64,000 nucleotides of DNA from Nitrospinaceae bacterium (lineage in GTDB: Bacteria; Nitrospinota; Nitrospinia; Nitrospinales; Nitrospinaceae). The DNA is taken from NCBI GenBank assembly GCA_024644405.1, contig JAHELC010000006.1:62001-126000 (forward strand), given 5' to 3'. Of the stretch, positions 34,530 through 54,003 are shown piece after piece (the stretch's first letter is position 1; the number at the start of each line of letters is the position of its first letter). A model generated the notes under the pieces. That model was not told where the DNA came from. It saw nothing but the letters and a program-made list of their open reading frames with translations, and made no database searches. The position numbers were made by a program, and so were the translations under genes.

Positions 34530-36419
34530 ATGAGCAGTTACAAAGCTAAAGACATTCAAGTTCTGGAAGGTTTGGAGCCGGTCCGTAAACGGCCGGGGAT
34601 GTATATCGGTTCGACCTCCCTGCAGGGCCTGCATCATCTGGTCTGGGAAATTCTGGACAACTCCGTCGATGAAGCGCTGAACGGGCACTGCAATCAAATC
34701 GAAATCCACATCAAAAAGGGAAATGAAATCACCGTTAAAGACAACGGCCGCGGTATTCCCATCGACAAATTCCAGAAAACCAAAAAGAGCGCCATGGAGG
34801 TACTGTTCACCACTTTGCATTCGGGTGGCAAGTTCCAGGAAGGCAGTTACAAAGTGTCGGGCGGATTGCACGGCGTGGGCATGGCGGTGGTGTGTGCCCT
34901 TTCGAAATCATTGGTCGCCACTTCCCGCCGCGATGGATTTGAGTGGACCCAGGAATTTTCCCAGGGCAAATCCAAGGGCAAACTGAAAAAAGGCAAGGCC
35001 TGCCGAACCAAAGGCACCGAGATCAGTTTCAAACCGGATCCGGAGATCTTCCCCAAAATCGAGTTCAATGTGAAATGGATTCTGGAACGGGCCGAATCCA
35101 AGGCCTTTCTCAACAAGGGGCTGAAGATCATTGTCAAGGAAGACAAGAAAACGCACACATTCCAATACCCGGAAGGCATCAAGGATTTCATCCGTAAAAT
35201 CATCGACAGCAAGTCGGTGTTGACCGAGGAACCGTTTTACACGGAGAAAGAAGATAAAAATCTCCGGATGGAAACGGCTTTTGTCTGGACTTCCAACACG
35301 GATACCGTGATTCATTCCTATGCCAACGCCATCAAGACCATCGATGGGGGCACCCATGAAAACGGGTTCCGCAACGGAATCACCAAAGCCCTGAAGGCTT
35401 TCATCGAACGCCGCAAACTTCTTCCCAAAGGAGTCCCCGGCATTACCGGCGACGATGCCAAAGAAGGGTTAGTGGCGATTATCAACGTGTACCTTCAGGG
35501 GGACGTCGAGTTCCAAGGCCAGACCAAGGGCCGTCTCAATTCCGATATCACCTCCCAGGTGGAATCGGTGGTCAAGCATTCACTGGAGCATTATCTCCAC
35601 GACCACCAGTCGGTGGGTGATCTGATCGCCAACCGGGTGATACTGGCCGCACAGGCCCGCATTGCCTCGCGTCAGGCCAAGGATTCTGTCAATCGCAAAA
35701 CACATATTTCGCATCGATTGAACCTTCCCGGAAAACTTTCCGATTGCGCTTCGACCGACCGCGACGAGTCGGAGCTGTTTATTTGCGAAGGAGACTCGGC
35801 GGGGGGTTCCAGCAAGCAGGCCCGCGACCGGAAAACCCAGGCTATTTTGCCGATTCGTGGCAAGATTCTGAATGTGGAAACGGCCGCACAGGATAAAATT
35901 CATGCCAATGCAGAAATCAAAAATATAATTTCCGCTTTAGGTGCGGGGATCGAGCCCAAGTTTGACTACGACAAATTGCGATACGGCAAAATAATTCTCA
36001 TGACAGATGCCGACGTCGATGGCGCCCATATCTGTTCTCTCTTGCTGACTTTTTTCTATCGATTCATGCCCCAGCTCATCAAGGGAGGTCACCTGTTTAT
36101 CGCTCAACCGCCCCTGTACCGGATCGATTCCGGGAAAAAACTCTTTTATGCGGTGGATGACAAGGAAAAAGACAATGTGATCAAGACCTTAAATGGCGCC
36201 AAATATGAAGTGGGTCGGTTCAAAGGACTGGGCGAAATGCCTTCCCATGATCTTAAATCCACCACCATGGATAAAACCAAAAGAACCCTGATACGGGTAA
36301 CTATTGAAAATAACAAGCGTACCGATAAAACGTTTGACCGCCTTATGGGTAAGGAAGCCCAGCACCGCTTTAAATTTATCCAAGAGAAGGCGCCATTTTT
36401 CAAAGAGTTAGATGTTTAA
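34530..36419 (+). CDS. parE: DNA topoisomerase IV subunit B
   Basis: 629 residues, ATPase subunit partnering ParC. The GHKL ATPase domain has ILDNSVDEALNGH, KDNGRGIPID and GGLHGVGMAVV. The transducer carries the QTKGRLN lysine loop. The TOPRIM domain has FICEGDSAGGSSKQARDRK and the metal-binding LMTDADVDGAHI. At 629 residues it matches ParE or short GyrB, without the long GyrB insertion. Five bases after parC, so co-translated. Confidence 0.9.
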   Translation: MSSYKAKDIQVLEGLEPVRKRPGMYIGSTSLQGLHHLVWEILDNSVDEALNGHCNQIEIHIKKGNEITVKDNGRGIPIDKFQKTKKSAMEVLFTTLHSGGKFQEGSYKVSGGLHGVGMAVVCALSKSLVATSRRDGFEWTQEFSQGKSKGKLKKGKACRTKGTEISFKPDPEIFPKIEFNVKWILERAESKAFLNKGLKIIVKEDKKTHTFQYPEGIKDFIRKIIDSKSVLTEEPFYTEKEDKNLRMETAFVWTSNTDTVIHSYANAIKTIDGGTHENGFRNGITKALKAFIERRKLLPKGVPGITGDDAKEGLVAIINVYLQGDVEFQGQTKGRLNSDITSQVESVVKHSLEHYLHDHQSVGDLIANRVILAAQARIASRQAKDSVNRKTHISHRLNLPGKLSDCASTDRDESELFICEGDSAGGSSKQARDRKTQAILPIRGKILNVETAAQDKIHANAEIKNIISALGAGIEPKFDYDKLRYGKIILMTDADVDGAHICSLLLTFFYRFMPQLIKGGHLFIAQPPLYRIDSGKKLFYAVDDKEKDNVIKTLNGAKYEVGRFKGLGEMPSHDLKSTTMDKTKRTLIRVTIENNKRTDKTFDRLMGKEAQHRFKFIQEKAPFFKELDV

Positions 36420-36546: not shown

Positions 36547-36618
36547 TACATTAAAAGTCCATATAAACAATTCCACCCAAAATGTTAAATATTTAACTCG
36601 TGTGGGAACATTTTGTCT

Positions 36619-39546
36619 ATGAATCCTGTTCAAGCAAAGCCTGCCAAATCAACCAAGTCACCTAAATCAGCGAAACCGGGAAAACCCATGGGACAGCCTG
36701 CGAAACCTGTAGCCACGTCCCCTGCCGCTTCCAAGTCACAGGGCCGCCGTGCCTCGGATAAATTGAAGCCCGTTGTCAATCGGATATTGTCCGCGGAAAG
36801 TATTACCAAAACTCTTTTCGAGCTTACCGAAGAGTTACAAGAACTCTTTGATGCCGATAAAGTCACGGTCTATGCCATTGACCGTCCGAAACGGCAGTTG
36901 TTCTCGCGTAATTTTGCATCCTCTGAAAGTCAGGAGATACGAGTCGATATTTCTCCAAAAAGTTTGGCGGGCTTTGTTGCTGCTTCGGGGCGTACACTCA
37001 ACATTCACGATGCCTACGATAAAGAAGAGCTTGGTAAAATTCATCCGGAATTGAATCTGGACACCAAATGGGATGAAAAACTGGGTTATAGAACCAAGTC
37101 CTGCCTGATCGTTGCCCTGCCTCACAACAAAAAATTGATGGGCGTCCTTCAAGTCATCAATAAAAAATCGGACCCAAACTTTACCGATGAGGATGTCCGG
37201 CTGGCAAAAGAACTGGCCGGTACCCTGGGACATTCCATCGTCAAAATGCAGTCTGAAATTATCGAGGAGAAAATTCAGGCAACCTCGCACGCTATTCATA
37301 CCGCATCCAGTTTGCAGGAAATCTTGGTCGAGTTGCGAATGCCCATACTGCAATTATTCGAATGCAAAATGGTCACCATCTACGCTGTCGACAAGGCAAA
37401 GAATGAGATCTACTCCCAAGTCCGGCCGGGAGACACATTGGAGGAAATCCGTCTTCCCATTTCCCCCGAAAGCATTGCCGGTTGTGTGGCTTTGGAGAAA
37501 AGGCCGATTAACATCAAAAACGTCAATGACCAGGTGGAATTGGTCAAATATCATCCGGAACTGGCGTTTGACAAATCATGGGATTCGCTGTCGGGAGAAC
37601 AAGCGAAAAGCATGTTGGTTTGCCCTTTGATCCATGAGGGAGAACTGATGGGTATCCTCCAACTGGTCAACAAACAAAATGAGGAACCTTTCAATGTCAA
37701 TGATGAAAAATGCATTTTAGCCATAGGGCAGTCCCTGTCTTTGGCGCTTTACAATCAACAACGGCAAACTAAGACCAAGCCGACCAAGTTCAGCTACCTG
37801 ATCAACAATGGGCTATTAAGCCAGGAAGAGTTGACCAAAGCGATTACCCAGGCCCGCACCAATGGGATCGATATCGAAGCGATTCTATTAGACGAGTTCA
37901 AGATCAAGCGGAAAGATTACGGCAAATCACTGGAGGAATTTTACAAGGTTCCCTACGTGGGTTACTCCGATGAGGTTGTCCTGCCGCAATCCCTTTTTAC
38001 TGGCCTCAACACCAACTTTCTGGCAAAAAATAATTGGCTGCCGATTGAAAAGAGCGAGAACAAGGTCACTATCCTGATCGACAATCCCGCCAACCAGGAC
38101 AAGATCCAGAATATCAAATTGATCTTTTCCAAAAAGGCTCTCGAATTCAAAGTCGGCCTTAAAGCGGACATACATGATTTCCTGAAAGTCACCCCGGATG
38201 GTTCCGGCATAGACGATGATATCGATGATCCTGTCGAGACCGAAGAAGTTTCGAGCCTGTTGGATGCCCTGCAAAATGAATCGGAGGATGCGGCAACTGT
38301 CGAATCTGCTGAAGATGATGATGCCAACGCGATCAGCGAAACGGACAGCACCATCGTCAAACTGGTCAACAAAATCCTGATTGACGCTTACGATATGGGG
38401 GTTTCCGATATTCATATTGAACCGGGCGTGGGCAAGAAACTCATGAGAGTCCGCTACAGGAAGGACGGAACCTGCCGGGTTTATCAGGAAATCCCTCCGA
38501 TGTACAAGCAGGCTTTCATTTCCCGCATCAAGATCATGTCACGGCTGGATATCGCAGAACGACGCCTGCCCCAGGACGGCAAAATCAAAATGAGATACGG
38601 TAAAAAAGAGATCGAATACCGTGTCGCGACCTGCCCGACCGTGGGCGGCAATGAGGATGCTGTCTTGCGTATTCTGGCCGCCAGCAAACCGATTCCCCTG
38701 GAAGGCATGAATTTTTCCCCGAGAAACCTGGAGATGATCCAGACTTATTCGGCAAAGCCGTACGGTTTGATTCTGGTGGTGGGTCCCACCGGTTCCGGTA
38801 AAACGACGACTCTTCACTCGACTTTGGGTTTTATCAACAAACCGGACAGGAAAATATGGACCGCCGAGGATCCGGTGGAAATCACTCAGGATGGCCTGCG
38901 TCAGGTCCAGATGCTTCCCAAGATCGGTTTGGATTTCGCCCGGGCCATGCGTTCGTTTTTGCGTGGCGACCCGGATGTCATCATGGTGGGTGAAATGCGT
39001 GACGTGGAAACCTGTTCGATCGGGCTGGAAGCGTCCTTGACCGGTCATCTGGTGTTCAGCACCCTGCATACAAACTCCGCGCCGGAAACCATTACCCGCC
39101 TTCTGGATATGGGGATGAATCCTCTGAACTTCGCCGACGCCCTGCTCCTCATCGTGGCTCAAAGGTTAGTGCGAACTCTGTGTAAGGACTGTAAAGAAGA
39201 TTACCACCCGACCCAGGAAGAATATGATCAATTGGTCCATGAATATGGTAACGAAGAAATCTTCAATAAAAATATTGGTGTCCCTTATTCTGACGAACTG
39301 CTACTTAAAAAACCCGTTGGATGCTCCAAATGCAACGACACCGGTTACACCGGGCGTACCGGTCTTCATGAAGTCCTGGAAGGAACCGATGAAATCAAAC
39401 GCATGGTGATGAAGCAAGCTCTGATGGAAGAGCTGAGGGAACAGGCTGTCAAAGATGGAATGACAACCTTGAAACAGGATGGTATCTGGAAAGTATTCAA
39501 AGGAGATTGTGATTTAAAACAAGTCATGTCGGTTTGTATTGTTTAA
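36619..39546 (+). CDS. GAF-GAF-MshEN-GspE/PilB-type secretion ATPase, copy 1
   Basis: 975 residues from the ATG at 36619 (an in-frame TTG two codons earlier is less likely). Domain order: Lys/Pro-rich leader (1-45), GAF 1 (about 48-205), GAF 2 (about 215-375), MshEN/T2SSE-N domain (about 390-520), acidic linker, then the hexameric GspE/PilB motor with DIHIEPG, Walker A GPTGSGKTTT from Gly722, LRGDPDVIMVGEMRD, HTNSAPETI, and the four-cysteine zinc site CKDC (Cys855) and CSKC (Cys902). It should power a type IV pilus or type II secretion-like machine, with GAF domains adding ligand control. No other pilus or secretion gene is adjacent. Confidence 0.9.
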   Translation: MNPVQAKPAKSTKSPKSAKPGKPMGQPAKPVATSPAASKSQGRRASDKLKPVVNRILSAESITKTLFELTEELQELFDADKVTVYAIDRPKRQLFSRNFASSESQEIRVDISPKSLAGFVAASGRTLNIHDAYDKEELGKIHPELNLDTKWDEKLGYRTKSCLIVALPHNKKLMGVLQVINKKSDPNFTDEDVRLAKELAGTLGHSIVKMQSEIIEEKIQATSHAIHTASSLQEILVELRMPILQLFECKMVTIYAVDKAKNEIYSQVRPGDTLEEIRLPISPESIAGCVALEKRPINIKNVNDQVELVKYHPELAFDKSWDSLSGEQAKSMLVCPLIHEGELMGILQLVNKQNEEPFNVNDEKCILAIGQSLSLALYNQQRQTKTKPTKFSYLINNGLLSQEELTKAITQARTNGIDIEAILLDEFKIKRKDYGKSLEEFYKVPYVGYSDEVVLPQSLFTGLNTNFLAKNNWLPIEKSENKVTILIDNPANQDKIQNIKLIFSKKALEFKVGLKADIHDFLKVTPDGSGIDDDIDDPVETEEVSSLLDALQNESEDAATVESAEDDDANAISETDSTIVKLVNKILIDAYDMGVSDIHIEPGVGKKLMRVRYRKDGTCRVYQEIPPMYKQAFISRIKIMSRLDIAERRLPQDGKIKMRYGKKEIEYRVATCPTVGGNEDAVLRILAASKPIPLEGMNFSPRNLEMIQTYSAKPYGLILVVGPTGSGKTTTLHSTLGFINKPDRKIWTAEDPVEITQDGLRQVQMLPKIGLDFARAMRSFLRGDPDVIMVGEMRDVETCSIGLEASLTGHLVFSTLHTNSAPETITRLLDMGMNPLNFADALLLIVAQRLVRTLCKDCKEDYHPTQEEYDQLVHEYGNEEIFNKNIGVPYSDELLLKKPVGCSKCNDTGYTGRTGLHEVLEGTDEIKRMVMKQALMEELREQAVKDGMTTLKQDGIWKVFKGDCDLKQVMSVCIV
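39004..39092. repeat. 89-bp identical segment shared by the two GAF-GspE genes, copy 1
   Basis: Identical by eye to 41956-42044 and embedded in a longer near-identical stretch, although the rest of the two genes is clearly diverged even at synonymous positions. It encodes the conserved motor core around GLEASLTGHLVF. Confidence 0.8.
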
Positions 39547-39666
39547 TTCATAAAACTTTTCAGGCAAGACATGCGACATGCCCTACAGAAGTTGATATGC
39601 TTTTAGCAATTTATTAACTCTAAATCACCTCTTCCATTATTGAAAGTATATGCGCAGGGATTTTTT

Positions 39667-42492
39667 ATGCCTATCATCTCGTCTTCAGATAATGAAACCG
39701 TCCAGTCCATTAATTCACGGATCGTTTCTTCATCCAATGCCTTATCCCTGCTACCCGGCATTGTCAATGATTTAAAAACTATTCTTTCCTGTGAAGCCAT
39801 CACCTTGTTCCTGGTAGACCGCGAACACAAGCAACTGGTTTCCCTGAATCATATTTCCAACAAAATATCCCAAATCCAGGTAGAGATGTCTCCAAAAACT
39901 CCTGTAGGTTATGTTACTTCCTACGGGAAAGCGCTTAATATCAGCGATAAAATCTCCAAAGCGGAACTGGCGATGTACAACCCCAGCATGACGGTTTCTT
40001 CCAGCCTGGATAAACACCTCAAACTGAAAACCAAATCGATGATGGTGATCCCGCTTCCATTTCAACAAAAACTGGTGGGCGCTGTGGAGATTATAAACAA
40101 GCAGGGGGATCAAAAATTCACGACCGCAGATTTCAAGATTTCCAAGGAACTGGCGCATCCGTTAGGATTACTTGTTTCCAAGATCAAAAATGAGAGTGTC
40201 ACAACCCCGGCGCTCACACCCGCAGATCCCCAGCAGAAATTATTCCAAATAATCAATGCCATTCACTCCGCAAAAAATGTGGATGAAATATTACTTGAAT
40301 TGAAGATCTCCATTCTGGAACTATTTAATGCCGCCCTCATCACTATCTATGCCATTGATACGAGCAAGAACGAGATCTATTCCAAACTGAAATCTGGTGA
40401 CGCCGTCAATGAAATTCGTGTACCCATTTCATCCGCCAGCGTTGCTGGATATGTCGCGATGTCCCAGCAAACGGTCATGATTGAAAATGTACACGACCCC
40501 AAACAATTAAAGCGGTACCACCCGGATTTATCTTTTGACAGTTCGTGGGACAGAAAATCCGGTTTCAAAACCAAGGGCATGCTGTCTTGTCCACTCATTC
40601 ATAAGGGCAGATTGATGGGCGTTATTCAGCTCGTCAACAAAAAGGGAAGCGGAAATTTTGATCCATCTGATCAGAAAAACGCCCAAATGATTTCCGAGAC
40701 ATTAGCGCTGGCCTTTTTCAATCAAACGAAATTTGTCCATCAAAAACCCACAAAATTTTCCTACCTCACGAACAATGGAATTATCACTGAACGGGAATTG
40801 ACCGAAGCCATCGGCAAGGCACGCAGGAACCAGATTGATATCGAAACGATTCTATTGCATGAATTGAAAGTAACGCGAAAAGATTTAGGCAAATCACTGG
40901 AGCAGTTTTACAAGGTTCCTTATCTTGGCTACGACAGTTCCATAATATTGCCCCACTCGGTATTCGAAGGATTGAATCTGAGTTTCCTCACAAAAAACTT
41001 CTGGGTTCCCATTGAAAAAACCGGCAACAAAGTAATTGTCCTGATGGACAATCCTTTCAATAAAGATAAAATTCAAAACATTAAACTTATTTTCCCCAAG
41101 AAAAATGTCGAATTGAAAGTAGGGCTGAAAGCAGATATCCGGGATTTCTTGAACTCCACGATTGCAGAAAACGACGAGAGCTCAACATCCGCTGACGAAA
41201 TGTCCGACCTTTTGCATGCCCTGAGGTCAGAAAAAGAAGAAACCGTCACTGATACAGAACCTGAGGATAACGATCTCAATGCCATCAGCGAAGAGGACAG
41301 CACCATCGTCAAACTGGTGAACAAAGTACTGATCGATGCTTATGACCAGGGGGTCTCTGATATCCATATTGAGCCGGGAGTCGGCAGAGACAATATGGAG
41401 GTCCGGTACCGCATCGATGGGTCGTGCCGGGTCTTCCAGGAAATTCCGCCCATGTACAAGCAAGCGGTCATCTCCCGGTTGAAGATCATGGCCCGGTTGG
41501 ATATTGCCGAAAGGCGCATGCCGCAGGACGGTAAAATCAAAATGAAGTATGGCAAGAAAGAAATCGAATTCCGTCTGGCCACTTGTCCGACCGTAGGCGG
41601 CAACGAAGATGCCGTATTGCGTATTCTGGCCGCCAGCAAACCCATCCCTCTGGACAACATGAATTTTACCAAGCGGAACCTTCAACTGACCAAGAAAATG
41701 GCTTCCAAACCTTATGGGCTGATTTTAGCGGTCGGCCCGACCGGTTCCGGTAAAACGACAACCCTGCATTCGGCTCTGGGTCACATCAATACCAAGGATA
41801 AAAAAATATGGACTGCAGAGGACCCGGTGGAAATCACCCAGAAAGGCCTGCGCCAGGTCCAGATGCTTCCCAAGATCGGATTGGATTTCGCCCGGGCCAT
41901 GCGCTCGTTTCTGCGTGGCGACCCGGACGTCATCATGGTGGGTGAAATGCGTGATGTGGAAACCTGTTCGATCGGGCTGGAAGCGTCCTTGACCGGTCAT
42001 CTGGTGTTCAGCACCCTGCATACAAACTCCGCGCCGGAAACCATCACGCGTCTCATCGATATGGGCATGAACCCACTCAATTTTGCAGATGCGTTACTGC
42101 TGATTATTGCCCAAAGACTGGTCCGTACCCTGTGCAAGGATTGCAAGGAGGATTACCATCCCTCTAAAAAGGAATTTGAAATACTGGTTCGGGAATACGG
42201 AGTCGAAGAATTCAAAAAACTGGGTATCCAGTACACCAATGACCTTCGGTTGAAAAAACCCGTCGGATGCTCCAGGTGCAGCGACACAGGTTATGCAGGC
42301 CGGACCGGCTTGCACGAAGTTCTGGAAGGCACGGATGAAATGAAGCGGATGATCATGAGTCAATCGTTGATCGAAGAATTGAGAGCTCAGGCCATCAAGG
42401 ACGGAATGACCACTTTGAAACAGGATGGGATACTCAAGGTATTCAAGGGCGATTGTGACCTTAAGCAGGTTTTGGCCGTCTGTATTGTTTAA
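39667..42492 (+). CDS. GAF-GAF-MshEN-GspE/PilB-type secretion ATPase, copy 2
   Basis: 941 residues from the ATG at 39667 with AGGGA seven bases upstream; an earlier TTG at 39640 is unlikely. It has the same architecture as the preceding gene: two GAF domains (about 15-170 and 185-345), MshEN domain (about 360-490), acidic linker, and the GspE motor with GPTGSGKTTT, LRGDPDVIMVGEMRD and CKDC/CSRC zinc cysteines. It lacks the Lys/Pro-rich N-terminal leader of copy 1. The motor halves are highly similar and the sensory halves much less so, suggesting duplicated motors tuned to different signals. Its last 32 bases overlap the convergent trmFO gene. Confidence 0.9.
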   Translation: MPIISSSDNETVQSINSRIVSSSNALSLLPGIVNDLKTILSCEAITLFLVDREHKQLVSLNHISNKISQIQVEMSPKTPVGYVTSYGKALNISDKISKAELAMYNPSMTVSSSLDKHLKLKTKSMMVIPLPFQQKLVGAVEIINKQGDQKFTTADFKISKELAHPLGLLVSKIKNESVTTPALTPADPQQKLFQIINAIHSAKNVDEILLELKISILELFNAALITIYAIDTSKNEIYSKLKSGDAVNEIRVPISSASVAGYVAMSQQTVMIENVHDPKQLKRYHPDLSFDSSWDRKSGFKTKGMLSCPLIHKGRLMGVIQLVNKKGSGNFDPSDQKNAQMISETLALAFFNQTKFVHQKPTKFSYLTNNGIITERELTEAIGKARRNQIDIETILLHELKVTRKDLGKSLEQFYKVPYLGYDSSIILPHSVFEGLNLSFLTKNFWVPIEKTGNKVIVLMDNPFNKDKIQNIKLIFPKKNVELKVGLKADIRDFLNSTIAENDESSTSADEMSDLLHALRSEKEETVTDTEPEDNDLNAISEEDSTIVKLVNKVLIDAYDQGVSDIHIEPGVGRDNMEVRYRIDGSCRVFQEIPPMYKQAVISRLKIMARLDIAERRMPQDGKIKMKYGKKEIEFRLATCPTVGGNEDAVLRILAASKPIPLDNMNFTKRNLQLTKKMASKPYGLILAVGPTGSGKTTTLHSALGHINTKDKKIWTAEDPVEITQKGLRQVQMLPKIGLDFARAMRSFLRGDPDVIMVGEMRDVETCSIGLEASLTGHLVFSTLHTNSAPETITRLIDMGMNPLNFADALLLIIAQRLVRTLCKDCKEDYHPSKKEFEILVREYGVEEFKKLGIQYTNDLRLKKPVGCSRCSDTGYAGRTGLHEVLEGTDEMKRMIMSQSLIEELRAQAIKDGMTTLKQDGILKVFKGDCDLKQVLAVCIV
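41956..42044. repeat. 89-bp identical segment shared by the two GAF-GspE genes, copy 2
   Basis: Partner of 39004-39092, same orientation, about 2.95 kb apart. Confidence 0.8.
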
Positions 42493-43807
42493 CTCCCTCC
42501 AAACTCCCCAGCCACCTCTCCTGCATCGCCAATGCCCTGTCGATAATATGCTGATTTCTTTTCTTCTTGTCGCGAATCCGCATCTCGGGTCCCAGAAACA
42601 ATCCGAAATTGATATTCATGGGTTGATAATTCCCCTCTTTAGCTGTCACATATTGCAGTAAGGCTCCGATGGCGGTCTCTGCAGGCGGCGGTGAAAACGC
42701 GGTCTTTTTTAACCGGCTCATGGCGCTCAAGCTGGCGACCAGACCCATGGCCGATGACTCGACATACCCTTCCACCCCAACGACCTGCCCTGCAAAAAAG
42801 ATGTTCGGATGGCTCTTCAGACTCAAGTCCCCGGATAATAATTGCGGCGCATTGATAAACGTATTCCGGTGAATGGCCCCCAATCGAAAAAACTCAGCAT
42901 TCTCCAGGCCGGGAATCATTTTGAAAATTCTTCTCTGCTCCGGATAAGTGAGTTTGGTTTGAAACCCAACCAGGTTATAAGCCGTGCCCTCTTTGTTTTC
43001 CTTCCTGAGTTGAACCACTGCATGAAACCGTTCGTGGGTGTCAGGATGGTTCAATCCAACCGGTTTGAGCGGCCCGAATGCCAAAGTCTGAGGCCCACGA
43101 TCCGCCAGCACTTCGATGGGCATGCATCCTTCAAAATAGACCGGTTTCTCAAACTCCTTCAAGGAAACTTTCTCGGCTTTTAACAGCTCATCGACAAAGT
43201 GTTCATATTGTTCCCGGCTCATGCCGCAATTGAGATAATCCGCGTCCCCTTTGCCATATCGGGATGCAAAATATGTTTTGTTGGTATCGATCGATTGAGC
43301 ATCAATGATGGGTGACAGCGCATCGTAAAAATACAAATAGTCCTGCCCCAGCAATTGCGTCAGTTTTTCGGAAAAAGCCGGCGACGTTAACGGCCCGGTT
43401 GCAATAATCACCGGTCCTTCCATGGGGATTTCCGCGACTTCTTCATGGATCAGGGTAATGTTGGGATGCTGTTCCAGGGACCGGGTGATCTCTTCAGAGA
43501 ACAGGTCCCGGTCCACCGCCAGAGCTTTGCCGGCGGGCACGCGGTTTTTATCCGCGGACCGGATCACCAGCGAGTCCAGATTCCTCAGTTCCTGTTTCAA
43601 CAAAAAGGGAGCGGACGAATCCTGATTGGAACCCATGGAATTACTGCACACCAATTCGGCGCAATTCCCGGTCTTGTGAACCGGGGTCGGGCGCTGCGGC
43701 CGCATTTCGTATAGAACCACGGGTACGCCCGCTTCAGCGGCCTGCCAGGCGGCTTCGGAACCCGCCAGGCCTGCACCGATAATCGTCAGGTGTGGACTCA
43801 TCTTCAA
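42461..43807 (-). CDS. trmFO: Methylenetetrahydrofolate--tRNA-(uracil-5-)-methyltransferase
   Basis: 448 residues. It methylates U54 of tRNA using methylenetetrahydrofolate and FADH2. The N-terminal FAD motif is IGAGLAGSEAAWQAA; ELVCSNSMGSNQ, YFASRYGKGDADYLNCGM, FEGCMPIEVLADRGPQTLAFGP and GVEGYVESSAMGLVAS are family signatures, with conserved catalytic cysteines in the NCGM and EGCMP segments. It is last in dprA-topA-trmFO, 15 bases after topA. The 3' end overlaps the convergent GspE gene by 32 bases. Confidence 0.96.
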   Translation of the reverse strand: MKMSPHLTIIGAGLAGSEAAWQAAEAGVPVVLYEMRPQRPTPVHKTGNCAELVCSNSMGSNQDSSAPFLLKQELRNLDSLVIRSADKNRVPAGKALAVDRDLFSEEITRSLEQHPNITLIHEEVAEIPMEGPVIIATGPLTSPAFSEKLTQLLGQDYLYFYDALSPIIDAQSIDTNKTYFASRYGKGDADYLNCGMSREQYEHFVDELLKAEKVSLKEFEKPVYFEGCMPIEVLADRGPQTLAFGPLKPVGLNHPDTHERFHAVVQLRKENKEGTAYNLVGFQTKLTYPEQRRIFKMIPGLENAEFFRLGAIHRNTFINAPQLLSGDLSLKSHPNIFFAGQVVGVEGYVESSAMGLVASLSAMSRLKKTAFSPPPAETAIGALLQYVTAKEGNYQPMNINFGLFLGPEMRIRDKKKRNQHIIDRALAMQERWLGSLEGVKQYRRPKPA

Positions 43808-49569: not shown

Positions 49570-50883
49570 TCAACTCTTGGTGAGCGGCTTGTGGGTGAAC
49601 GATTTCCCGTCTTTTCCCGAATAATCCGCCACGATCTGGCCGTTGCCCACCAGTTTGTATTTATAAATGACGAGACCCTCCAATCCGACAGGTCCCCGGG
49701 CATGGGTTTTGTTGGTACTGATGCCGATTTCCGCACCCAGGCCGAACCGGAAGCCGTCCGCAAACCGGGTCGAGGCGTTCACCATCACGCTGGCCGAATC
49801 CACTTCATTCAAAAACCGTTCAGCCCGCTCCTTGTTTTCGGTAACGATGGTATCGGTGTGGCCCGAGCCATGCGTGTTGATATGGTCGACTGCTTCCGAT
49901 AGATCATCGACAATCTTGAGGGACAGTTTGAGATCATTGTATTCCGCATCCCAATCGTCGGCCTCTGCCCGTTTCAGGTCGGGAATCAGACTGCACGTCT
50001 TCAGGCAACCCACCAGTTCCACCTCCTGCTCGCGGAATTGTTGCACGAGAGACGGCAACACCTTCGGGGCGATGGCCTGATGCACCAACAGCGTTTCCAT
50101 CGCATTACAGGCGGCGGCATACTGGAGCTTGGAGTCGATGGCCAACCGAATGGCCTTGTCGACATCCGCCTCCTCATCGAGATAGACGTGGCACAATCCT
50201 TCCGAATGCCCGAGTACCGGTATTTTGGTATGGTCCTGGACGTAGCGCACAAACTGATTGCTTCCGCGCGGAACAATCAGGTTGATGTATTGATCCTGCT
50301 TCAGCATCTCGGCCACTTCCGCCCGGGTTTCGATCAATTGCACCGCCGCGACGGGAACGCCCTGCACTTCAGACAACGCTTTCTGGATCAAGTCCACAAT
50401 CACCCGGTTGGAGTTTTGCGCTTCGGCCCCTCCCTTCAAAATGACGGCGTTACCCGATTTAAAACACAGGGCGGAAATCTGGGGAACGGCATCGGGCCGG
50501 GATTCAAAGATGGCACCGATCACTCCAATGGGACAGGACACGCGGGTCAATTCCAACCCCTTGTCCAATTCCATCGCCGCCTGCAGCTGTCCAACGGGAT
50601 CAGGCAGTTCCGCCACACTGCGGATGCCCTGGGCCATTCCCAGAACCTTGGTTTCATCGACCGCCAGCCGTGCCACGAGCGGACCGGGGATTTTCTCTTT
50701 TTTGGCGAATTCCAGGTCCTGGCGGTTGGCCTCGAGAATTGCGTTGCAATGGTTTTCGATCTGCGTCGCCATTCCCTGCAACACCCGGTTCTTGGTTGCC
50801 GTATCCAACCGGGAAAGAACCAGGGCCGCCGCTTTGGCGTCTGAGGCGATTTCGGACAAGTTTTTTTCTATCAAGTTAGTCAC
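49570..50883 (-). CDS. proA: Glutamate-5-semialdehyde dehydrogenase
   Basis: 437 residues. It reduces gamma-glutamyl phosphate to glutamate semialdehyde in proline synthesis. Features include VSCPIGVIGAIFESRPDAVPQISALC, GGAEAQNSNRV, LIVPRGSNQFVRYVQ, GHSEGLCHVYLDEEAD, the catalytic cysteine in QYAAACNAMETLLVH, and NASTRFADGFRFGLGAEIGIST. Length is slightly above the usual 415-420. Its start overlaps the stop of the LRR gene by eight bases, linking it to the exported-protein cluster. proB is not in the window. Confidence 0.96.
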   Translation of the reverse strand: MTNLIEKNLSEIASDAKAAALVLSRLDTATKNRVLQGMATQIENHCNAILEANRQDLEFAKKEKIPGPLVARLAVDETKVLGMAQGIRSVAELPDPVGQLQAAMELDKGLELTRVSCPIGVIGAIFESRPDAVPQISALCFKSGNAVILKGGAEAQNSNRVIVDLIQKALSEVQGVPVAAVQLIETRAEVAEMLKQDQYINLIVPRGSNQFVRYVQDHTKIPVLGHSEGLCHVYLDEEADVDKAIRLAIDSKLQYAAACNAMETLLVHQAIAPKVLPSLVQQFREQEVELVGCLKTCSLIPDLKRAEADDWDAEYNDLKLSLKIVDDLSEAVDHINTHGSGHTDTIVTENKERAERFLNEVDSASVMVNASTRFADGFRFGLGAEIGISTNKTHARGPVGLEGLVIYKYKLVGNGQIVADYSGKDGKSFTHKPLTKS

Positions 50884-51850
50884 TGGCAGCCGACGGATAA
50901 AGTGGGTTTTTAATTTGTTTTAATTTATTTTTGAGAGCTTCCACCCCTTTTTCTCCGATCTCGTTGCCCCACATTCTAAGAAACTGTAGGCTGGCCAACA
51001 CCTTGGACCCCGCCAAATACATGGCCCCCTGGGTGGTAATGCCGTTCCACTGCAAATCGAGTTCAACCAGGTTTTTAAATACCGGGGATTCCTTCATGGA
51101 AAGCATCCCCAGATCCCCCAACTTGTTGTTTTTGAGCAGCAGGGTCTTGAGGTTGGTCAGCGCCTTGGAATCGGCGATGCTCTGGATGCCCGACGGACCG
51201 ATTTTGTTTTCTCCCAAATCCAGAATTTCGAGATGGTTTAAAAATTTGGAATCGCTCAAAAACTTAACACCTCTATCGCTGATCCCGTTTTTCGCCAGTC
51301 TCAACTCCCGGATACTGCCGATCACTTCCGACTGGGCCAGGGCCTTGAGGCCCTCGTCACCAATCTGGTTCCCGGTGAGATCCAGGGAAACCAGCTTCAT
51401 GGTCGTTTTGGACTCGGCGATGGCTTCGGCCCCCTTGGGGCCAATTTTGTTTCCAAACAAACTGATCGTAGATAAATTGGGATAGGCCTTGGATTCAAAC
51501 AAGGCCTTCACGCCATCGTCCTGAATCTGGTTGTTGAATAAATTGAGAACCTTCAGGTTCTGTAAATAATTGGATTGAGCCAGCGCCTCGGCACCTTCGT
51601 CTCCCAGATTGTGGGTATTCAGGTCCAGGGTTTCCACCTTTTCAAGCAGTTTCGATTCGGCCAATTGCTTGATGCCTGCGTCATACAGCATTCCGCTGTG
51701 ATTCAGCTTAAGATATTTACCTTCCTGTTTCAGGTCCTTAAGAATGAGCACGTTGATATCCAGTGCAAAAGCGGTCCCCATTCCCGTCAGAAGCAGAACT
51801 ATCGTGCCCAGCAAACTCAGCCGCATTATTTTTATATGTTTTTTTCTCAT
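50876..51850 (-). CDS. Exported leucine-rich-repeat protein, RNase-inhibitor type (LRR-1)
   Basis: 324 residues. Signal peptide at the N terminus (core about 12-27, cleavage near AFA-LD). The mature part has about eight repeats of about 27 residues of the pattern LxxLxLxxNxIGDEGxxALAxSxxL, the ribonuclease-inhibitor LRR class. It ends in a lysine-rich tail. It is a probable periplasmic or surface protein-binding scaffold; the partner is unknown. The NHL gene upstream overlaps its start by four bases and proA follows with an eight-base overlap. It is paralogous to the LRR protein at 54056-54844. Confidence 0.88.
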   Translation of the reverse strand: MRKKHIKIMRLSLLGTIVLLLTGMGTAFALDINVLILKDLKQEGKYLKLNHSGMLYDAGIKQLAESKLLEKVETLDLNTHNLGDEGAEALAQSNYLQNLKVLNLFNNQIQDDGVKALFESKAYPNLSTISLFGNKIGPKGAEAIAESKTTMKLVSLDLTGNQIGDEGLKALAQSEVIGSIRELRLAKNGISDRGVKFLSDSKFLNHLEILDLGENKIGPSGIQSIADSKALTNLKTLLLKNNKLGDLGMLSMKESPVFKNLVELDLQWNGITTQGAMYLAGSKVLASLQFLRMWGNEIGEKGVEALKNKLKQIKNPLYPSAASD

Positions 51851-54003
51851 GGAAAATTATGCACCGTTATACGAACTTCCAAACCATCCTGCAACCAGCC
51901 GATATTACTGTTTCCGGCGACTGTGGAAATGATCCCCTGAGGATCGATTTTCCGGATGCGGTTGTTGTCCCGGTCAGAAAAGTAAAGATTTCCCTCTTTA
52001 TCGAAGGCCATGCGGTAGGGGCTTTTCAATTGGGCCTGGTTCGCGGGACCGCCATCCCCGCCATAACCGGGAGACCCAGTCCCCGCTACATGCATGATGT
52101 TTCCTTCCTTGCTTATTTTGCGGATGCGGTGACTGGTTTCTTCCGCGATAAACAGCTCTCCGTCGGGGCTGAAGGTGAGCCCTCCCGGAGACCGGATTCC
52201 CGCCTGAATCGCCGGCCCGCCATCGCCGGAATCCCTGAATTCTCCCGTACCGGCGAATATCGTCACATTCTGGTTCCTGTCAATTTTTCTGATTTTACTA
52301 CTTCCTGAGTCGGAAATAAATATTTCTCCGTTCTGGCTAATGGCAATTCCGTTGGGATGAATTTCTTCATCCACAATTTTTACCCAGGTATCCGAAGCCA
52401 GTGTGGACACAACTCCCTGAGTATCCACCTTACGGATTTTCCGGTTGGTCAGGTCCGCCAGATAGACATTACCCTGACGATCCACCGCAATGTCCTGAAT
52501 CACTCCAAACGAAGCCTGGAGCGCCGGTCCACCGTCGCCTTTGTCTCCCAACACCCCATTGCCGGCAAACCGGGTGATTTTGCCTTGAGGATCGATTTTT
52601 CGGACAACTTTGCTGTTCCCCTGGGGAGACACGAAGTAAATATCGTCTTGGGGGCCCACTGCCATGGCTCCCGGCAAAAATAACGATGCCTCGGAGGCCG
52701 GACCGCCATCCCCTTCATTTCCCTGATCTCCCGTACCCGCCAAAGTGAAGATAAAACCTTTTTCATCAATCTGACGCAGGCGGTTATGCATTTTATCCGA
52801 AAAAATTACACGCCCCTTGCTGTCTACCGCCATTCCCGAAGGGGAATCCAGAGTGGCTCCCGCACCTGGGCCGCCGTCACCCCGAAACCAGGAGTTGCCG
52901 TTGCCGGCAAGGGTAGCAATGGCGTGGGATTTTAAATCCATACTCCTGACCCGGAAATGATTGCGGTCCACGATTATCAGTTTCCCATCGGGACTCAACG
53001 CCAGTGCGAAGGGCAAATGGAGAGTGGTTTCGGATGCGATTTCATTGTCCCCGTTATATTCATACTTCCCGATTCCCATAACGGTAGTCATGATACCCAG
53101 TGAGTCCACTTTGCGGATTCGGTTGTTGTTCCGGTCGGCAATGTACAGGTTGCCCCGGTCATCGACAACCACATCGGTGGGATATGCCAGACTGGCACGC
53201 GTGGCCGGTCCGTAATCCCCGGCGAAGAAATGAGTGCCGTCTCCAGCCACGGTTGTGATGATCCCCTGGGTATCCACTTTGCGAATACGATTGTTGCCCC
53301 GGTCGGCGATATACAGATTGCCTTTCCTGTCCAGATCGATCCCAAACGGATATTTCAGAAAGGCGCCGGTTGCCGGACCGAAATCGCCGCCAAACTCGGG
53401 AAGTCCCATCCCAGCTACGGTGGATATCTTTCCCTGGGAATCGACTTTTCTAATACGATTATTTGAGCGGTCGGAAATATACAGATTTCCTTTTCCATCA
53501 CACACCAAGTCGGATGGATAGTTCAGATAAGCTTGAACCGCTGGACCGCCATCACCCCCCATATCGGGGTCACCGGCCCCGGCCACGGTGGTCACGATCC
53601 CTGATGTATCGATCCGGCGAATGCGGTGATTGTTACGGTCGGCCACATATAAATTTCCGGCTTGATCCAGACACAACCCGGCAGGAAAATTAAAAGAAGC
53701 TTTCAGGGCCGGACCATTATCTCCGCTGAACCCCGCCAACCCGTTGCCCGCAATGGTGGTGATAATGCCGTCCTTACCCACCTTACGAATACGGTTCTTG
53801 GATCGATGCGATATGAATAAATTACCTTCCGGGTCGACCACCACTCCGTCGACCAGGGTCACGATCACTTCCGTCGCTTTGTTGCCGTCGCCGATGTCCT
53901 TGTAGGGATAAGGACCCGACCCAGAGTCCGCGCTTGTGCTCATGCCGGTCACCAACAAGGTGAAGCACCAGGCAATCGAATATATATTTTTTATAGTTAG
54001 CAT
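51847..54003 (-). CDS. Exported NHL-repeat protein with twelve repeats
   Basis: 718 residues. The signal peptide (about 1-25, MSTSADS) is followed by twelve NHL units of about 55 residues. Each reads approximately DxxGNLYIADRxNNRIRKVD, then GIITTVAGxG and a GDGGPAxxAxL connector. The count fits two six-bladed propellers. The repeats are very regular, and weakest in repeats 6 and 8. NHL propellers bind proteins, RNA or carbohydrates; this one is exported so a ligand- or protein-binding role in the envelope is likely. It is translationally coupled to LRR-1 and 52 bases downstream of LRR-2. Confidence 0.9.
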   Translation of the reverse strand: MLTIKNIYSIAWCFTLLVTGMSTSADSGSGPYPYKDIGDGNKATEVIVTLVDGVVVDPEGNLFISHRSKNRIRKVGKDGIITTIAGNGLAGFSGDNGPALKASFNFPAGLCLDQAGNLYVADRNNHRIRRIDTSGIVTTVAGAGDPDMGGDGGPAVQAYLNYPSDLVCDGKGNLYISDRSNNRIRKVDSQGKISTVAGMGLPEFGGDFGPATGAFLKYPFGIDLDRKGNLYIADRGNNRIRKVDTQGIITTVAGDGTHFFAGDYGPATRASLAYPTDVVVDDRGNLYIADRNNNRIRKVDSLGIMTTVMGIGKYEYNGDNEIASETTLHLPFALALSPDGKLIIVDRNHFRVRSMDLKSHAIATLAGNGNSWFRGDGGPGAGATLDSPSGMAVDSKGRVIFSDKMHNRLRQIDEKGFIFTLAGTGDQGNEGDGGPASEASLFLPGAMAVGPQDDIYFVSPQGNSKVVRKIDPQGKITRFAGNGVLGDKGDGGPALQASFGVIQDIAVDRQGNVYLADLTNRKIRKVDTQGVVSTLASDTWVKIVDEEIHPNGIAISQNGEIFISDSGSSKIRKIDRNQNVTIFAGTGEFRDSGDGGPAIQAGIRSPGGLTFSPDGELFIAEETSHRIRKISKEGNIMHVAGTGSPGYGGDGGPANQAQLKSPYRMAFDKEGNLYFSDRDNNRIRKIDPQGIISTVAGNSNIGWLQDGLEVRITVHNFP

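Follow-up and report, generated by a model that had tools for sequence, protein, structure and literature searches.

GAF-GAF-MshEN ATPases as candidate extension motors of a type IVa pilus in Nitrospinaceae

Two adjacent genes of a Nitrospinaceae bacterium, here termed F1 and F2, each encode a fusion of paired GAF domains, an MshEN domain and a PilB-like ATPase. Both genes lie in a stretch of 64,000 nucleotides (the window; assembly GCA_024644405.1, contig JAHELC010000006.1, positions 62,001 to 126,000), and a third fused copy, F3, is located on contig C3. We propose, with a probability of roughly 60%, that F1, F2 and F3 are the extension motors (PilB equivalents) of the type IVa pilus of this genome, each fed by a GAF input of its own. 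Docking on PilC, extension activity, the GAF ligand and the sharing of one machine are inferred from protein anatomy, elimination, co-occurrence and evolution. In the proposed mechanism, the motors would act as hexamers that dock on the PilC/PilMNOP base and use ATP to drive pilins into the fibre. Input would come not from c-di-GMP, the MshEN domain being devoid of its ligand site, but from tandem GAF domains of the CyaB2/phosphodiesterase type. The copies would share an interchangeable motor core and differ in their GAF1 sensor, such that the cell could choose or mix motors by signal. A recent review (PMC11656802) lists as open the questions of what leads some bacteria to maintain several PilB homologues and whether mixed rings form.

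F1 (36619..39546, plus strand) encodes 975 amino acids from the ATG at 36619; its open reading frame opens at a TTG at 36613, giving a length of 975-977 residues. F2 (39667..42492, plus strand) encodes 941 amino acids from the ATG at 39667, or up to 950 from the TTG at 39640. In the 977-residue frame of F1, GAF1 covers residues 46-220 (36748..37272), GAF2 residues 221-388 (37273..37776), the MshEN domain residues 389-530 (37777..38202) and the motor (N2D + CTD) residues 577-977 (38341..39543); the F2 motor occupies 41293..42489. Pfam searches recovered two GAF stretches, MshEN and T2SSE in both proteins, every domain above its cut-off (GAF 2e-24, MshEN 1.3e-9 and T2SSE 3e-115 in F1; 1e-17, 1.2e-10 and 9e-116 in F2), which rules out chance or mis-annotated domains. 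Pfam and motif analysis thus bear out the first-pass annotation, which had read from the letters a tandem GAF-GAF-MshEN-GspE/PilB architecture with Walker A, Walker B and zinc cysteines. It was likewise right in calling the adjacent genes duplicates, as the two proteins are 61% identical. Their close relatives come from Nitrospinota. As conserved neighbours, and outside the system itself, a parE-like gene for a topoisomerase/gyrase B subunit (34530..36419, plus strand) lies upstream, and a trmFO-like gene (42461..43807, minus strand) is found downstream, tail to tail with F2; both were named from sequence. Further along the minus strand, the window encodes a leucine-rich-repeat-like protein of 324 amino acids (50876-51850) and an NHL-repeat-like protein of 718 amino acids (51847-54003).

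The motor core is complete in its catalytic motifs. F1 and F2 both have an intact Walker A (GPTGSGKT), TAEDPVE segment, Walker B with E794, TGHLVFSTLHTN and zinc tetracysteine. Among all NCBIfam models, the PilB equivalog (TIGR02538) scored highest, with 508.0 bits for F1 and 515.9 bits for F2, both below its cut-off of 675.65 bits. Scores against the GspE model (TIGR02533; 458 and 463 bits, cut-off 630.25) and the TfpB model (NF053534; 384.6 and 406.0 bits, cut-off 850) also stayed under the respective thresholds. In an ATPase tree that included few reference PilBs, the fused family formed its own clade (SH-aLRT 100), apart from GspE, MSHA-type motors, the PilB encoded beside pilS in relatives and the PilB of two class-level relatives (G002, G003). 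An AlphaFold model of F1 (mean pLDDT 80; pTM 0.41, hence domain placement is unsure) predicts a pair of GAF-like domains with a long connecting helix (192-230), as well as the MshEN helices and the motor. The best solved match of the F1 motor was Geobacter PilB (TM 0.91 by target, 45% identity), compared with 0.81 and 40% for GspE/EpsE. Against the nearest relative, dN/dS of the fused genes of the window was 0.05-0.07; with all motifs intact, this rules out that F1 and F2 are pseudogenes or relics.

Whole-genome searches with models for T2SSE, T2SSF (platform), secretin, PilM and the pilin N-terminus gave no match on the contig of the window besides F1 and F2. The description of the pair as lacking a pilus or secretion locus therefore holds for this contig but not for the genome (2.98 Mb, 40 contigs, 96% complete), which encodes a type IVa pilus and a type II secretion system (T2SS) on other contigs. 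The pilus genes are spread over several loci. PilM and PilP (both by Pfam), PilN and PilO (by order and size) and the secretin PilQ are present, with PilN, PilO and PilP lying between PilM and PilQ, as are two PilA-like pilins and a minor-pilin cluster. One operon holds pilT, pilT2, pilC and a PilS-type kinase gene, and no pilB; the pilB-less pilT-pilT2-pilC operon is also found in relatives. GspE (663 bits to the GspE model) is encoded inside a full gspC-E-F-G-H-I-J-K-L-M-D locus on another contig. Genome-wide, there are six T2SSE matches, namely one GspE, two PilT and the three fused proteins, and only two platform proteins, PilC and GspF. The survey for pilB/gspE partners and platforms that the first-pass annotation had called for thus yielded GspE, two PilT, F3, PilC and GspF, and the T2SSE search of this 96% complete assembly found no ordinary pilB. 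With two platforms only and no ordinary pilB, the extension motor of PilC would be a fused protein, would be missing from the assembly, or would be GspE doubling in this role. As a pilus is present and GspE sits in its own locus, the fused proteins become PilB candidates by elimination. The objection raised earlier, that the fused form could prove to be the ordinary, sole PilB of the lineage, holds by half: the fused proteins are the only PilB candidates in this genome, but with a separate clade and three copies they are not ordinary. F3 adjoins genes for a receiver-Lcl_C protein and a large PAS-GAF histidine kinase, and relatives share this arrangement (L078:7299-15723; L093; L148; L154).

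Against the main reading, the PilB cut-off is missed, the clade is separate, and the fused genes are not encoded with pilC/pilT or in any pil locus. The last two would also suit a motor of another machine, be it the T2SS or a secretion/pseudopilus system. However, one of the two platform proteins belongs to the T2SS and no third machine was found in the genome; moreover, among the genomes surveyed below, four have fused copies without a detected GspE and two have GspE without a fused copy. We consider this explanation very unlikely, and identity as the T2SS motor was rejected, because GspE has its own locus and fused copies persist without GspE.

To place the fused proteins in a wider context, 42 genomes of the phylum, 36 of them from the order, were searched for PilB-type ATPases, PilM and PilT. 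ATPases of ordinary length were classed by neighbours and similarity, using the surrounding DNA of most of them. They were mostly GspE beside gspC and gspF (assigned in G035 and G036 by position or score). A second class comprised ordinary PilB encoded next to pilS/pilR, accompanied in some genomes by a pilC and pilin of its own, and the few remaining were MSHA-like or orphan. The comparison of fusion numbers among relatives proposed earlier found fused copies in 30 of the 36 order genomes, in one to four versions. All 30 have PilM or PilT, and none of the four genomes devoid of both carries a fused copy (Fisher p 2.5e-4 over 36 genomes, uncorrected for phylogeny); most genomes are incomplete MAGs, so absences are soft. 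Fourteen genomes have PilM and PilT and no pilS-linked PilB, and every one of them carries fused copies; no genome with PilM and PilT lacks both this PilB and fused copies. The fourteen include all four genomes of the window's genus. In two of the fourteen, G016 and G017, there is an orphan ATPase as well, which in G017 is interrupted by an in-frame stop; in G011, an MSHA-like locus comes with a platform protein of its own. A fused copy was not found in G025, which has the pilus core and an ordinary PilB; this weighs against the main reading.

The clade also extends beyond the phylum. It holds Desulfobacterota proteins with a TPR N-terminus, and in a Desulfobacterales locus (L051:7344-13936) the TPR-MshEN-ATPase gene is followed by receiver-PAS, HAMP-MCP, CheW and CheA-like genes. 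Single-GAF members occur in Formivibrio and Deefgea (Chitinibacteraceae), in an operon of the order PP2C - FHA - MBL/PDEase_II - GAF-MshEN-ATPase - GAF-HD-GYP (L048:5749-12113, L047; domains checked in Deefgea). These two genomes also possess a canonical PilB (821 and 837 bits), hence the GAF ATPase is an extra there and members of the family may not serve as the main motor in all bacteria. The fused proteins could accordingly be accessory extension motors or motor regulators, similar to TfpB, with GspE doubling or an unassembled pilB supplying the main motor. Eleven order members with PilM and PilT do carry fused copies together with an ordinary pilS-linked PilB, and two extension motors serving one pilus are known from Acinetobacter baylyi (PMC8213720, PMC11656802). 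On the other hand, a pilS-linked PilB was detected in none of the four genomes of the window's genus, and G012 (97% complete) has three fused copies and no GspE that could be found. We judge the accessory role unlikely, while giving it real weight. The operon contexts of these relatives also raise a different explanation, namely that the proteins are mainly signalling devices whose ATPase informs another pathway of the state of the pilus or of metabolism; a role of PilB as a signalling protein in exopolysaccharide production is described for Myxococcus (PMC5544727). Yet no catalytic motif has been lost and constraint is strongest in the motor, making a mainly signalling function very unlikely. 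The clade looks like a branch of pilus motors equipped with sensors, which serves as an accessory in some bacteria and in this Nitrospinota order often provides the main or sole motor. As separate observations, a PilB-like ATPase gene in G040 lies downstream of genes for a roadblock-like small protein and a Ras/MglA-like GTPase (L089:1860-6755), and in G039 a receiver-MshEN-T2SSE-double-zinc-ribbon fusion adjoins an MglA-type GTPase-like gene (L090:3532-6015).

If the fused proteins are extension motors, their input is probably not c-di-GMP. The c-di-GMP motif of Wang et al., RLGxx(LVI)2xxG(LVI)2xxxxLxxxLxxQ, occurs twice, 5 residues apart, in MshEN receptors (PMC5013675). F1 keeps 3 and F2 keeps 4 of the 14 key positions (10-11 replaced), compared with 11 of 14 in the ordinary pilS-linked PilB of a relative. 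The same replacements recur in most of 76 family members, with R to T, L to K, G to F and Q to A in the first half-motif and G to E and Q to F or Y in the second. The domain is thus still recognisable, but its residues indicate loss of the ligand site. Gating by c-di-GMP through MshEN, as first supposed, is unlikely even though the genome encodes about a dozen GGDEF domains; it was dropped as a candidate because the binding residues are replaced, and the idea that the motors integrate two types of signal thereby loses one of them.

The GAF domains offer another candidate input. CyaB2 is the best solved relative of both GAF domains of F1 (for GAF1, the CyaB2 GAF structure 1ykd), and GAF domains of phosphodiesterases are also among the best matches. 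GAF2 is better conserved than GAF1. An NKFDE-type motif (NK-x5-F-x3-DE) is complete in GAF2 of F1 and partly kept elsewhere. A cyclic nucleotide would be the most likely ligand. Cyclic nucleotides are also hinted at by five class III nucleotide cyclases in the genome, by a stand-alone cyclic-nucleotide-binding protein of 139 amino acids encoded in the pilT-pilC operon of this genome and its relatives (L075:9472-9891), and by a C-terminal cyclic-nucleotide-binding domain on the PilB of the class-level relatives G002 (L084:6408-8651, checked by Pfam) and G003 (L085). In the latter two genomes, the pilB gene lies near one resembling cheA.

Sensors and motors of the fused proteins have separate histories. 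F1 and F2 become more alike along their length, with an identity of 32% in GAF1, 47% in GAF2, 67% in MshEN and 82-84% in the motor. In a tree of the GAF region, F1 and F3 together stand apart from F2 throughout the order (support 99), and the GAF data reject a grouping of the copies by lineage (AU p 4.5e-5 and 2.8e-4). In the motor tree (last 400 residues) the copies cluster largely by lineage, and a grouping of F1 with F3 is rejected (AU p 0.0055); the groups for all AU tests were picked after viewing the trees, so these p-values are optimistic. A tract of 87 bp around the His box is identical between F1 (39004..39090, plus strand) and F2 (41956..42042, plus strand), and none of 20,000 shuffles was as extreme. 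The tract differs at 14-15 sites from F1 and F2 of the nearest relative, whose own two copies differ from each other at 4 sites. The tract is a recent instance of gene conversion in the motor core, a process that recurs in separate lineages, and the GAF trees show an ancient split of F1 and F2. Independent late tandem duplications, taken from a first tree, were replaced by one old duplication with motor conversion on the basis of the domain-wise trees. The conversion pattern fits motors that share a base or ring while their inputs stay distinct. Together with a single PilC without ordinary pilB and the co-occurrence with PilM/PilT, the homogenised motors with diverged sensors make it likely that the copies are alternative drivers of one machine, as the first-pass annotation had suspected.

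Several genera carry a third tandem fused gene whose product is altered in Walker A and lacks the Asp box, the His box and the second arginine finger (L026:6265-8628, L032:14070-16484, L038:14424-16781, L151, L156). Its dN/dS of about 0.09 resembles that of the intact neighbours, indicating purifying selection. In G030 (L156) the copy at the F1 position is itself decayed and its neighbour is still F2-like; the genome of the window has no degenerate third copy. A tentative extension of the extension-motor reading, possible though doubtful, is an input-coded mixed pilus motor. Paralogues with different GAF domains would occupy one hexamer or alternate on one base, recurrent gene conversion would keep the core interchangeable as the sensors diverge, and in some genera the dead third subunit would be kept as a regulatory part of the ring.

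Across the whole order, GAF inputs appear to have taken the place of c-di-GMP in control of the pilus motor, with motors kept alike and sensors kept apart. These genomes offer natural material for testing how an extension motor is chosen or gated by small-molecule signals and what inactive motor subunits do. In the openly accessible literature, we found no description of a GAF-PilB fusion or of Nitrospina pili with PilB. Multiple extension motors as such are already known (TfpB; PMC8213720, PMC11656802); new here are GAF-sensor paralogues as candidate PilB equivalents.

Compared with known systems, F1 and F2 are closest to PilB (TIGR02538; Geobacter 5tsg/5tsh, Myxococcus 3jc8), with which they share the order N1D (MshEN)-N2D-CTD, Walker A and B, Asp and His boxes, the zinc tetracysteine and the best model and fold match. 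They differ from PilB by two added GAF domains and the replaced MshEN ligand residues, and the fused family by scores below the family cut-off, a separate clade, two or three copies and a position outside any pil locus. As in the MshE/MshEN c-di-GMP receptors (PMC5013675), MshEN precedes a T2SSE motor, but the RLG...Q signature of those receptors is replaced in both half-motifs. The TfpB system of A. baylyi (NF053534; PMC8213720) is akin in having more than one extension ATPase for apparently one pilus; however, TfpB has its own family model, which F1 and F2 miss widely, and the copies described here are mutual paralogues with GAF sensors. On the sensory side, the tandem GAF domains of CyaB2 and of vertebrate PDE2/5/10 are the closest solved relatives and share the long helix between the GAF domains (predicted by the model) and the NKFDE-type motif in GAF2, complete in F1. 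Their output is a cyclase or phosphodiesterase, whereas that of F1 and F2 is a pilus-type ATPase, and in the fused proteins the conserved G..tksmL segment is preceded by an additional conserved stretch, eL...Hp.L.FD.sWD.
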